Assembly: GCF_009905605.1 (NCBI RefSeq)
Contig: NZ_JAAAKZ010000002.1
Location: 558,001 to 622,000, forward strand
Length of the DNA: 64,000 nucleotides
Reading direction: 5' to 3'
Source of the DNA: Runella sp. CRIBMP
Lineage (GTDB): Bacteria > Bacteroidota > Bacteroidia > Cytophagales > Spirosomataceae
The notes under the pieces are model-generated. The model did not search any database, was not told the origin of the DNA, and saw only the letters and a program-made list of their open reading frames with translations. The position numbers and the translations under genes were made by a program. Below, one piece after another: positions 7,882 through 13,466 of the stretch (its first letter is position 1; every line of letters starts with the position of its first letter).

Positions 7882-8592
7882 TTAGGGTTGGGATATAATA
7901 TTAACCAAATGAAGCGTTTGACAAGCTACCAAAGCGGCCGTTTCGGTACGTAAACGAGTATTACCGAGCGTTACCATCTCAAATCCGTGTGCTTGGGTTA
8001 ACTGTATTTCGGCCTCCGTAAAATCTCCTTCGGGGCCAATCACTACGGTATAATTTTGGGCAGGACCCGCTTTTTTTAATAAATGTGCGGGGATTTTATC
8101 TTCGGGTAAATGTGCAATGAACCTTTGGGTTGTATTGACCATAGGGATATATTTTCCAAAATCACCCACTTCCCTGATTTGGGGCAAAAAAGCCTGCAAC
8201 GACTGTTTCATGGCCGAAACGGCGATTTTATGGAGGCGTTCCAACTTCATGTTGCGTCGTTCAGAATGCTTGGTATAAAAAAAGGAAATGGTATCAATCC
8301 CGATTTCGGTCGCTTTTTCCACAAACCACTCAATTCGGTCCATGTTTTTGGTGGGGGCCAACGCAACTTCAATCCGATAGTTTCGCGGGGTCTGTACGGT
8401 TTGTTGAACCACTTTTAAATCACAACGTTTGGGCGTACTGCTTTGCACAACGGCATCATACCAGCTCCCCTGCCCGTCCGTGACCCGCACCGCTTCCCCT
8501 TCACGCAAACGCAGTACTTTGGCGGCATGAAAAGCTTCGTCGTCGATTAAAGCGGAAAGTTCGGAGAAATTGGGTTGGTAAAAGAGGTGCAT
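7882..8592 (-). CDS. rsmE: 16S rRNA (uracil(1498)-N3)-methyltransferase
   Basis: About 236 residues. The start is placed at the ATG at 8592 (MHLFYQPNF), which matches the usual RsmE N-terminus; an in-frame upstream start adds seven residues. The N-terminal PUA-like RNA-binding part (HAAKVLRLREGE) is followed by the SPOUT methyltransferase core, with EKATEIGIDTISFF, the SAM-binding trefoil knot VVIGPEGDFTEAEI and LGNTRLRTETAA. It methylates U1498 of 16S rRNA in the small subunit. It is followed on the same strand by the LytTR gene after about 125 bases. Confidence 0.95.
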   Translation of the reverse strand: MHLFYQPNFSELSALIDDEAFHAAKVLRLREGEAVRVTDGQGSWYDAVVQSSTPKRCDLKVVQQTVQTPRNYRIEVALAPTKNMDRIEWFVEKATEIGIDTISFFYTKHSERRNMKLERLHKIAVSAMKQSLQAFLPQIREVGDFGKYIPMVNTTQRFIAHLPEDKIPAHLLKKAGPAQNYTVVIGPEGDFTEAEIQLTQAHGFEMVTLGNTRLRTETAALVACQTLHLVNIISQP

Positions 8593-8640
8593 GGTTAACA
8601 AGTCAGAAGTCAAGAAAAAGAAGTGCGTTTAAAGTTATCC

Positions 8641-9336
8641 CTAAAAGCCCTCAAAACACATTTTATTTTGAATAGTAGAATAATAAACTTTTTGGTTTTG
8701 TCCTTTCATCTCCACTCCATAGTCGTTATTATTCAACCATTTAGCCCTTTTAGACGTAAAGTATGAAGAATCCAAATAACCACCATTATCTCTGATTAAT
8801 GCTTCGTGTTTAGTAGTTGATGCACCATCTGAAACAACAAAATAGATTTTAGAAGTGAAAATATCTTTTTCCAAAATAACTTGCCCCGTATGAGATTGGA
8901 CCCTATTCAATTTTTTAGGATATTCTTTTACGAACCGAAAATCAGCATCTATTATTTTTTTATAAGCATTTTGAAAGACCTCTTTATCCCAACCCAAAGT
9001 GCTGGCAGTTACTATTACTGAGGAATGTAACAAATCAAGTAAATATCTTATTCTGACATTCCCTGAAAAAGCAAGGTATTTATCCTCTTCAAAGTAACAC
9101 CAGACGCTACATATTGAACCAAAATAAGAAGGTTTCCCCAAAATATCTGAAAAACGATGTGTAAAATGAATACCAAGTCGACTCGTTTTTAAGGGTTTGT
9201 ATCCATTCAACAATTGGTGGTAAAAATCGCAAATAAAATTAACGGTCTGACGAAAATGATTTGGATTATTGAGTGAATCAAAGTCAGATGTTTCTCTGTC
9301 AGAGTAATAAATTGTTATATCTCGAAAAGGCATCAT
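8641..9336 (-). CDS. Hypothetical protein, AT-rich orphan
   Basis: 231 residues; I do not recognise it. The start is a doubled ATG at 9336. No signal peptide, membrane helix or nucleotide-binding motif is visible; the sequence is mixed alpha/beta-like, rich in Tyr, Phe, Lys and Asn, with two Cys close together (SICSVWCYF). Its base composition is visibly richer in A and T than rsmE and the VWA gene on either side, which suggests recent acquisition. It sits 23 bases after the VWA gene on the same strand and could be co-transcribed with the MoxR/VWA unit, but nothing shows a shared function. Confidence 0.7.
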   Translation of the reverse strand: MMPFRDITIYYSDRETSDFDSLNNPNHFRQTVNFICDFYHQLLNGYKPLKTSRLGIHFTHRFSDILGKPSYFGSICSVWCYFEEDKYLAFSGNVRIRYLLDLLHSSVIVTASTLGWDKEVFQNAYKKIIDADFRFVKEYPKKLNRVQSHTGQVILEKDIFTSKIYFVVSDGASTTKHEALIRDNGGYLDSSYFTSKRAKWLNNNDYGVEMKGQNQKVYYSTIQNKMCFEGF

Positions 9337-11457: not shown

Positions 11458-11540
11458 TAGTATAAAAATTGGGGTTTTCGATTGACGATTTTCGATTGCA
11501 TTAACCATCTAAATATCAACCAATTACTTTCTTTCGATTT

Positions 11541-12215
11541 CTAACTTAGGTTTGCTGTTTCAATCTTTACAAGATACTGCTCCACAAAATAGTTGAAACT
11601 TGGATTTTGTGGATATGCGTTTTTCAGAATCTTTGTTTTACAGAATTCTCGGGACAGTTTCTGATAGATTTTAGCATCTTTCCGAGTAGGATTTATAATG
11701 TCTTTTTTGCTTTTAGTCAACAATTGATTGAGTTTATGGATGCAATTATTGGATGATGCTTGCGTATTTTTGTCAGTTGAATAAAGTGGCAACAGCCAAC
11801 ACTCAATTTCATTGACCGATACTGCGAAAAGAATTCTACGTTGATACGATTCATAAAATTTCTCTCCAAAGCCATTTTGAAACAGTCCCACAAATTTGGC
11901 AATTACTCGTTCAATAAATTCTTCTGTCGACTCACCATGAATCGGAGGTACATCATAATTTTTCTCATGGGAGCAGTCAGTATCAATCTGAATAATAATG
12001 TAATCTATTTGAATAAACGCGTCTTTGAAAAACGAGGATTTACAATATTCAAAGACATTGTACCAACCACCAAACCCCTGCAAAGCATCAGTAGCATCCC
12101 GCAAAGGTGTTAGCGGACGAACATCAAGGTCAGGGTCATTGAAGTAGCCCACCAAAATATTTTCCAAAACCACATGGTCAGTGACGCCTTCCGCAATAAG
12201 TCCAAAAGTAGGCAT
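11541..12215 (-). CDS. TOPRIM-like (DUF4276/OLD-type) protein, partner of the adjacent ATPase
   Basis: 224 residues. The N-terminus has the TOPRIM-type acidic motif LIAEGVTDHVVL (Glu9, Gly10, Asp13), a second acidic motif IIIQIDTDCSH (Asp-x-Asp near residue 78) and later VNEIECWLLPLY, which corresponds to the E-x-W-L-L element of DUF4276-like proteins. This arrangement is that of metal-dependent nuclease or topoisomerase-primase folds seen in OLD and in the effector of PARIS-like systems. It starts 3 bases after the stop of the ATPase gene, so the two are translated together. Visibly AT-rich. Function as a nuclease is inference. Confidence 0.65.
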   Translation of the reverse strand: MPTFGLIAEGVTDHVVLENILVGYFNDPDLDVRPLTPLRDATDALQGFGGWYNVFEYCKSSFFKDAFIQIDYIIIQIDTDCSHEKNYDVPPIHGESTEEFIERVIAKFVGLFQNGFGEKFYESYQRRILFAVSVNEIECWLLPLYSTDKNTQASSNNCIHKLNQLLTKSKKDIINPTRKDAKIYQKLSREFCKTKILKNAYPQNPSFNYFVEQYLVKIETANLS

Positions 12216-12218
12216 ACA

Positions 12219-13352
12219 TTAAAAGTTTTTAGGTAGCCCGCCAATGTATCCTCTCAAAAACTGCTCCGACAGTCGCACGGGTTCCTGACCTTCGGGAGCA
12301 GATTTATGGGCAATGCGTAAGGCTTTGGTGTGCCCAAGCTTGTTGCGCGAAATAACAAAAAGACGCTGTTCGTCATCTTTCAAATCAAGCCCATCCAACA
12401 CCGCAGGGTTGTGGGTAGTCATGATTACCTGTTTATCATGTTCTTTGGCAAGTTGCGTTAATTGCTGCACCAATCGGCTCGCCAGTTTGGGATTCATGGC
12501 GTTATCGATATTGTCAATGGCAAAAAATTTGGGCGTATAATCGCTGATAAACAGTGAGAAGTAAAACAGCAGATACAAAAAACCTTCGTTGGAGCTGTGT
12601 TGGTCAAAATACGCCAATCCTTCTTCCAAAAAGCGGTCTTTGATACGAATCCGCCGTTCGGTAAAGCGCAAATCATTGGGAATATCAAAACCCTCAAACC
12701 AATCTATCAAGGCCAAGTTATCCCTTATTTTTTGGAATTTCTCAGGTTTTTCTTCATAAATTACAGATAGCAATTTGAATAAACCTTCCCCTCTGATGCC
12801 TAGCGGAGTTATTTGTGATTCATCTTCAAAACGACGGAGGAAATAGTTTTCGGGGGAATAAATGAGAAAATCATGAAAATCATTCCAGAACTTCTCCCAA
12901 AGTATCTGATTAGTTATATATGTGTCGTTTTTAAATTTAATAATTGATGGATCACTCAATTCTTTCTCATCTATTTGGGCGAACGCAGTTGCAAAACCTT
13001 CAATTGAGTCTATTTCTCGTTCCCATTTGGAATAAATTTCATTAGTATTTCTAAGTTTAAAACTTAATTGATGATATGGGGCAATTCTTGTTATATTTAT
13101 CTTAATGTCTTTTTTTAGATTTTTCTTCTCAAATCCACTTCTCATTGACTGGGGCTCACTTCGCCTAATTCCCCTTGAACTCAAAAATTCATTATCCAAT
13201 TTATTCTCTCCAGCTGCAGAACCCATCGCAATAGCCTCTAAAATATTGCTTTTCCCGCTGCCATTTTCACCAATAAAGACATTCACTCGCCCTAACTCCA
13301 ATGTAAGCGACTGAATAGATTTGAAATTTTCAATTGTTATCTGCTGAACCAT
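12219..13352 (-). CDS. AAA15/SMC-like ATPase (RecF/OLD-type head domain)
   Basis: 377 residues. MVQQITIENFKSIQSLTLEL and Walker A GENGSGKSN (about 28-36) are the typical N-terminus of ABC/SMC-type ATPases; GEGLFKLLSVI near residue 190 may be the signature-like helix; the Walker B region reads FFAIDNIDNAMNP and the switch histidine is in IMTTHNPAVLDGLDL. The residue after the Walker B Asp is Asn, not the usual catalytic Glu. The central 150 residues are a divergent, AT-rich insertion in place of a long coiled coil. Together with the next gene (3-base gap) it forms an ATPase/TOPRIM pair, a layout shared by several phage-defence systems. Confidence 0.8.
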   Translation of the reverse strand: MVQQITIENFKSIQSLTLELGRVNVFIGENGSGKSNILEAIAMGSAAGENKLDNEFLSSRGIRRSEPQSMRSGFEKKNLKKDIKINITRIAPYHQLSFKLRNTNEIYSKWEREIDSIEGFATAFAQIDEKELSDPSIIKFKNDTYITNQILWEKFWNDFHDFLIYSPENYFLRRFEDESQITPLGIRGEGLFKLLSVIYEEKPEKFQKIRDNLALIDWFEGFDIPNDLRFTERRIRIKDRFLEEGLAYFDQHSSNEGFLYLLFYFSLFISDYTPKFFAIDNIDNAMNPKLASRLVQQLTQLAKEHDKQVIMTTHNPAVLDGLDLKDDEQRLFVISRNKLGHTKALRIAHKSAPEGQEPVRLSEQFLRGYIGGLPKNF

Positions 13353-13466
13353 GTCTTTGCATTCGCTTCTTTTTCCTGCCGCAAATTACACTTTTTTTAT
13401 CGTCTCATTACTTCATTTAGTCGGCTTAAAAACAATGGGATTAAGAGTATAAAAAAACGCAGCTAG

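Follow-up and report, generated by a model that had tools for sequence, protein, structure and literature searches.

What would a bacterial ATPase do with its ATP if the residue that normally catalyses hydrolysis were replaced, and does such an enzyme, encoded next to a small nuclease-like protein, belong to phage defence? This question is raised by two adjoining genes in a stretch of 64,000 nucleotides (nt) of Runella sp. CRIBMP (contig NZ_JAAAKZ010000002.1, positions 558,001 to 622,000), which is called here the window. The host genome is of Runella type; among the matches listed, the closest relative with a name is R. aurantiaca YX9, whose ATPase is 97% identical. An original prediction, made from the sequence alone, had proposed a defence or DNA-repair module, possibly with a slow ATPase as a switch. 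Judged from sequence and profile comparisons, the pair is a genuine two-gene module of patchy distribution that also occurs on mobile elements. It is best assigned to PDC-M31, a candidate system of PADLOC, and is probably an anti-phage defence system. The loss of the catalytic glutamate in every relative examined suggests an ATP-bound switch and not a motor. ATPase-TOPRIM guards are common in bacterial immunity, and whether they need ATP turnover or mere ATP binding is unsettled (PMC10568477; papers are cited by PMC number throughout for the parts of their text that were available). A family in which the Glu is replaced, and the replacement held in 100/101 homologues, amounts to a natural experiment on the need for ATP turnover. 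The substitution makes the role of turnover in such guards directly testable, and the candidate PDC-M31 gains a defined anatomy.

Both open reading frames (ORFs) lie on the reverse strand at the coordinates first proposed, with 3 nt between the ATPase stop and the partner start. The motifs announced for them are all present, namely Walker A GENGSGKS and FAIDNIDNAMNP with N281 in the ATPase, and EGVTD (E9-D13) and DTD (D78-D80) in the partner. The ORFs are not due to chance, because the ATPase matches the Pfam families AAA_21 (E=8.5e-20) and AAA_15 (E=3.7e-19) and because, in the comparison with the 97% relative G161 (locus L129), nonsynonymous rates (dN) are well under synonymous rates (dS), with dN/dS of 0.018/0.306 for the ATPase and 0.017/0.106 for the partner. 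The features of the two genes are the following (aa, amino acids):

12219-13352, reverse strand: ATPase gene, PDC-M31A-like, with an ABC/SMC-head fold, 377 aa (ORF, Pfam, PADLOC and fold matches)
13248-13271, reverse strand: Walker A GENGSGKS, aa 28-35, Lys invariant in 101/101 homologues
12873-13130, reverse strand: hypervariable insert, aa 75-160, defined by majority-residue frequency and length variation
12579-12596, reverse strand: ABC signature-like SSNEGF, aa 253-258, E256 and G257 invariant in 101/101
12489-12527, reverse strand: Walker B FFAIDNIDNAMNP, aa 276-288, from the homologue alignment
12510-12512, reverse strand: codon of N281 at the usual position of the catalytic Glu, Asn in 100/101 and Ser in 1
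12405-12419, reverse strand: H-loop TTHNP, aa 312-316, H314 in 100/101
12222-12242, reverse strand: C-terminal tail GGLPKNF, a GGLPxxF-type ending being present in 95/101 proteins
11541-12215, reverse strand: partner gene, PDC-M31B-like, DUF4276/RloB-related, with TOPRIM-like motifs, 224 aa
12177-12191, reverse strand: partner motif 1, EGVTD, with D13 as Asp in 88 and Glu in 5, and with E9 and G10 in 93/93, an invariance partly by construction because ORFs were selected on that motif
11976-11984, reverse strand: partner motif 2, DTD, D78 and D80 in 93/93
11796-11804, reverse strand: partner motif 3, ECW, E138 in 89/93 and W140 in 91/93

The exchange of the catalytic Glu for Asn, first read from this one protein, turns out to be a fixed trait of the family. 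Position 281 is Asn in 100/101 homologues, Ser in one (on a plasmid of Acinetobacter haemolyticus) and Glu in none; Ser also occupies it in a distant homologue of 29.5% identity from an unverified phage record. A lineage oddity or a sequencing error is ruled out by the 100/101 homologues that share Asn281. The 101 ATPases come from 9 phyla (taken from record titles, many of them of metagenome bins) and comprise the window protein, 80 genome loci, 12 viral contigs, 2 relatives from a family search and 6 plasmid copies. It should be borne in mind that the genome loci are the best 80 of 458 and that the genome and viral searches keep the closer relatives. Neither search used Walker B: the genome loci were sought with the patterns HNPA[VI]LDG and GKSNILEA, whereas for the viral contigs HNPA[VI]LDG was combined with FxGx(I/L)GGLP at the C-terminus, a pattern that could favour the tail in those 12. 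Some ATPase rows are identical or nearly so (L080/L104, L105/L106, L060/L066, window/L024 and L049/L067).

The register of N281 rests on D280, the Walker B Asp of the motif, besides two profile alignments. In one of them N281 stands opposite the Glu of retron PtuA (9n69, IDEIDLHLHP), a stretch that is weak alone (i-Evalue 6.3). In the other it is aligned with a Gln of an SMC1 chain (6zz6, VLDQVDAALD), a stretch likewise weak alone (i-Evalue 2e4); this Gln we take to be an engineered, hydrolysis-trapping change. The best fold matches of the ATPase include SMC and Rad50 heads.

For comparison, ATPases encoded upstream of DUF4276 or RloB genes were read in the same bacterial family. Among 57 such loci 51 were readable (1/30 and 5/27 were not), and all 51, AbiL itself not among them, have the Walker B Glu where the window family has Asn: 29/29 of those linked to DUF4276 (15 DE, 14 EE) and 22/22 of those linked to RloB (all DE). 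The comparison ATPases also keep the acidic position beside the Glu (DEPE, DELD), which corresponds to residue 283 of the window protein, D or E in 101/101 ATPases. Since they have both the Glu and the acidic residue, residue 283 is not an evident replacement base. Many DUF4276-linked ATPases share with the window ATPase a C-terminal GG(L/V)P-like tail (LGGGLPW, IGGTP or LLGGVP), which suggests that the GGLPxxF-type ending may be a shared docking element. The insert at aa 75-160 has a mean majority-residue frequency of 0.29 and a length of 49-149 aa (97 rows, omitting L023, L083, L050 and L058), against 0.73, 0.62 and 0.72 in the conserved blocks around it, and we infer it to be a candidate region for trigger sensing or oligomerisation. 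As a separate observation, the same genome carries paralogous pairs at C52:124264-125624 (L002, L005) and C54:205524-206450 (L003, L004), with Walker B EE and with ATPases ending in LGGGLPW and LGGVPA, which are useful natural comparators.

The partner had been called TOPRIM/DUF4276-like, a description that is upheld by profile and by motif, though not by any significant Foldseek match. Its structure model (predicted local distance difference test, pLDDT, 92.4) places E9 just past the first strand (3-7) and D78/D80 at the end of strand 72-78. The TOPRIM active-site layout of a Glu after a strand plus a DxD is thereby matched, E9 having been selected for and D78/D80 being held in 93/93. This layout resembles that described for the TOPRIM domain of GajA, in which the Glu follows one strand and the DxD another (PMC10781630). 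By Pfam, the window partner matches RloB only (E=2.3e-4, under the curated cut-off), with no match to PF14103 (DUF4276) or to DUF4435 up to E=0.1. Members of the partner alignment match DUF4276 in 34/60 cases and RloB in 22/60 (Pfam, E<=0.01), and AbiLii in 5/60 (PADLOC, E<=0.001). Profile-profile comparison by hhalign, with E-values that are those of single comparisons, gave a probability of 94.5 against DUF4276 (E=8e-8), 40.6 against OLD-TOPRIM (E=3e-4), 22 against RloB (E=1e-3) and 0.3 against DUF4435 (E=0.2); an unrelated control (ATPase against partner) scored 0.2 and a related one (DUF4435 against OLD-TOPRIM) 88.4. Two DUF4276-type genes of relatives also exceed the OLD-like_TOPRIM cut-off. 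A TOPRIM fold of the partner is likely from these profiles and motifs, without confirmation from Foldseek.

With regard to known systems, PADLOC assigns the ATPase best to PDC-M31A (E=6e-80; next PDC-M25A, 2e-29) and the partner best to PDC-M31B (E=1e-11, covering its first 84-90 residues). Sizes are similar too, and no difference from this candidate was found. PDC-M31 is named in no paper of a full-text search of 5.39 million open papers (bioRxiv and most subscription journals lie outside it), and the available parts of PMC11811056 and PMC12988326 mention other PDC-M systems and not this one. Open full-text searches likewise returned no paper on the Walker B Asn combination in anti-phage ATPases and none on DUF4276. 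The same two-gene plan, an ABC ATPase followed by a TOPRIM-like partner, is found in AbiL (AbiLi/AbiLii) and in the AAA + RloB/DUF4276 pairs; however, the AbiLi model reaches 3e-23 on the window ATPase as against 6e-80 for PDC-M31A, and the window partner has no AbiLii match. PARIS (AriA/AriB), a class 4 OLD system, also splits an ATPase from a TOPRIM-like nuclease, and AriA gives a profile match of 1.5e-25. Nevertheless, AriB is a DUF4435 protein and the window partner is not, and membership in PARIS is ruled out by this lack of similarity; on the window ATPase, moreover, the E-value of PDC-M31A is 54 orders of magnitude lower than that of the best AriA model. Gabija GajA, a single-chain OLD protein, likewise combines an ABC ATPase with TOPRIM-type acidic residues (a Glu after a strand and a later DxD), but it does so in one chain where the window pair has two. 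Membership in Gabija is ruled out by the separate ORFs and by the lack of a UvrD-type helicase among the three genes downstream of the partner (MoxR and VWA genes included). The original prediction is thus supported in part, by a gene pair of the OLD/AbiL type and by its match to a defence candidate, PDC-M31; membership in PARIS is not supported.

The two genes travel as a unit, because the within-protein distances of ATPase and partner correlate (Mantel r 0.78; 93 loci; 0/999 permutations as high) and because the partner starts close to the ATPase stop, at -5 to 25 nt in 86/92 measured loci (start codons chosen by script). A partner ORF, accepted only with the motif EG.[TSN][DE], lies directly downstream in 93/101 loci. 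Four of these 93 are incomplete, three (L069, L082 and L101) running to the contig end and one (L086) being split. Two downstream ORFs failed the motif; at L029 it is a different ORF, and at L059 tblastn finds the partner in full. At L041 the tblastn match runs to the contig end, and L028 has too little sequence.

Presence and absence vary even among close relatives, so that the pair is not an always present, strictly vertical one, as the original prediction required. The ATPase is found in 11/222 genomes of the bacterial family, its own included (E<=1e-30), in 3/13 genomes of the genus, and in 2/395 genomes of an even phylum sample (E<=1e-50), both from this genus. In five genomes (G164, G165, G170, G171, G172) the site is cleanly empty, MoxR directly adjoining the GMC oxidoreductase gene, and against G164 and G170 the indel maps as follows:

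11458-13360, no strand: indel interval relative to the empty sites L131 and L138, which have 79 bp of other sequence between the core genes MoxR and GMC oxidoreductase

At L132, L139 and L140 the edges of the indel differ from these by no more than about 80 bp. G167 keeps a decayed remnant at the same site (L135, about 2402-2868), in which ATPase aa 1-75 and fragments of the partner can be recognised. In G162 the pair adjoins this MoxR gene too, but the stretch read contains no match to GMC oxidoreductase; G163, G166, G168 and G169 lack both the ATPase and, in the stretch read, a GMC match. The three ATPases of the genus form one supported clade in the tree (which omits L083, L050 and L058), so that, for the genus, a pair present in the ancestor and lost several times is at least as good an explanation as several separate gains. 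The downstream MoxR-VWA genes were considered as part of the module and rejected; they are core neighbours, since MoxR is present in 13/13 genomes of the genus and the ATPase in 3/13.

The raised A+T content noticed at first in both genes is confirmed by GC contents of 0.387 for the ATPase and 0.370 for the partner. The 54 other ORFs of the window average 0.450 (sd 0.039), and only 2 of them lie lower than the pair. Within the ATPase gene the 5′ part (12700-13352) has 0.343 and the 3′ part 0.447. In the comparison with G161, the neighbouring genes have dN/dS of 0.004/0.249 (MoxR) and 0.004/0.236 (GMC oxidoreductase). The dN of the pair is thus roughly fourfold higher, and the two protein sequences change faster than those of their neighbours. 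A scan for promoters and terminators was not used (10 promoter-like sites vs 6.1 (sd 2.2) and 2 terminator-like sites vs 2.2 in shuffles).

Mobile elements carry the pair in several lineages. Plasmid copies occur in Pseudanabaena, Azospirillum, Paracoccus (5.8 kb, mobilisable), Acinetobacter (10.3 and 10.7 kb, MOBQ) and Enterobacter (conjugative). The pair on the E. hormaechei plasmid pE5_001 (L023, 4001-9179) is divergent (30% identity), and a SAVED-domain gene follows about 1.2 kb downstream of it. On four viral contigs (L110-L113) the pair adjoins a gene that is a portal by PHROGs in L110 and is 82-84% identical to it in the others; in L110 terminase, scaffold and capsid genes come after the portal, an order that is presumably that of phage P2. 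On the other side of the pair, L110 and L113 have a Rha-like regulator and then the contig end. P2-like phages of E. coli have a hotspot of defence genes, among them old and tin, in the cos region, which is bounded by gpA and gpQ (portal) (PMC9122126). The pair on viral contigs lies on the portal side, the only side verified here.

With this evidence at hand, the account that we favour, with some reserve, is that PDC-M31 is an accessory anti-phage module of the abortive-infection type, in which an ABC guard would hold a small TOPRIM-like nuclease inactive until infection, in the manner of AbiL and PARIS. The ATPase would bind ATP, dimerise around it and hydrolyse it very slowly; in this state it would dock the partner, perhaps via the conserved C-terminal tail. 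The complex would open when ATP falls or when the hypervariable insert senses a phage product, and the released nuclease would cleave tRNA or DNA and stop growth. A non-cycling, ATP-bound guard is the most economical reading because the Glu is replaced by Asn while the ATP-binding motifs are kept. More tentatively, and with a good measure of doubt, the Asn may be a natural equivalent of the Glu-to-Gln trap, making of the protein a non-hydrolysing ABC guard and one-shot ATP sentinel, fixed across 9 phyla, from which a fall in ATP or a phage product would free the nuclease. There are precedents for several of these steps. AriA hexamers keep AriB inactive until a phage trigger appears (PMC12409363), and GajA is reported to lack ATP hydrolysis, release by nucleotide depletion having been proposed for it, while P2 Old and TsOLD do hydrolyse ATP (PMC10568477).

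Several observations weigh against this account. Two Foldseek searches of the partner model (PDB and BFVD) gave no match at E<=0.001, and open full-text searches yielded no phage-protection or biochemical data on PDC-M31. In the family alignments every one of the 59 ATPases and of the 60 partners matches PDC-M31 (partners at E<=0.001), but these counts alone are not discriminating because the 59 ATPases also pass the AriA, AbiLi and HEC-01A models at E<=1e-10; the best scores of AriA and AbiLi are weaker than those of PDC-M31A. An intact partner is missing at L029 (a short remnant) and at L050, L056, L058 and L067 despite downstream sequence, the latter four showing no trace of it (L050 with only 931 nt downstream), and in L086 the partner is split between frames. 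Phylum labels change 14 times on the ATPase tree (minimum 8, shuffled mean 45), so that most spread seems to be within phyla and transfer between phyla looks limited. Finally, the flanking genes at the 35 of 80 genome loci scanned (at least 4.5 kb on both sides; 130 genes, up to two a side and none over 900 aa) are mostly ordinary, and the association with defence genes is weak. Flanking PADLOC matches (E<=1e-20) involve 35 models, of which 25 are listed; among these are PDC-M37B/DolB (3 genes), PDC-S03 (3), mad3 (2), SoFic (2) and PD-T4-6, mad6 and MkoA (one each). ClpB-like Pfam domains occur in 3/130 flanking genes, probably the PDC-M37B/DolB genes, and the window itself has 1 defence match among 54 genes. 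The argument from defence islands was rejected, these matches not being counted as enrichment.

Three other explanations have to be set against the favoured one. The pair might be a toxin-antitoxin (addiction) module, the ATPase serving as antitoxin and the TOPRIM-like protein as toxin, which would keep plasmids and prophages stable without any phage sensing. The small mobilisable plasmids of Paracoccus and Acinetobacter listed above would fit this; AAA proteins are reported to neutralise TOPRIM_OLD toxins, AbiLii being termed a TOPRIM_OLD effector (PMC10440598), and the AbiLii of F. nucleatum is toxic in E. coli (PMC3985639). In the Fusobacterium pair, however, AbiLi did not behave as an antitoxin. 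In the genus, the cassette occupies a chromosomal site that is not flanked by plasmid or phage genes, and relatives either lack it cleanly or keep a decayed copy; moreover, a few loci hold the ATPase without the partner. Addiction is for these reasons considered unlikely. A function in genome maintenance, with an SMC/RecF-like ATPase and a TOPRIM partner acting in DNA repair or recombination and not in defence, appears less probable still, and is judged very unlikely. The SMC and Rad50 heads among the best folds, the weak association with defence islands and a cell-cycle role of the archaeal OLD protein Cran1 (PMC12796447) speak for it, whereas the patchy distribution with its empty sites and remnant, the copies on plasmids and viral contigs and the hypervariable insert do not. 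The best match being a defence candidate also argues against maintenance, although the library of models contains defence models only.

The remaining alternative accepts the defence module and disputes the switch. Asn281 would work together with a second base, such as D283 or the His of the H-loop, in an ordinary cycling ATPase that is never locked with ATP. The acidic residue at 283 (101/101) and H314 (100/101) agree with it, and in Cran1 alanine changes of the Walker B residues E246/E247 were without effect (PMC12796447), so that some OLD proteins may depend less on the residue at position 281. On the contrary, the comparison ATPases have the same acidic position beside a retained Glu, and Glu is found at 281 in 0/101 homologues. 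We regard ordinary cycling as quite unlikely, and the guarded nuclease of an abortive-infection module remains the account preferred here.

Two minor observations concern other parts of the same genome. A separate OLD-like TOPRIM is found at C25:26041-26235 (L208) within an open frame of 651 residues. In the window, a 231-aa ORF (8641-9336, reverse strand) separates the VWA gene from the gene at 7882-8613. It has no tblastn match in the stretches of 12 relatives, not all of which reach that far, and the matches of its two flanking genes are only a few bases apart in G161 (L129), the 97% relative; this ORF is probably a strain-specific insertion.

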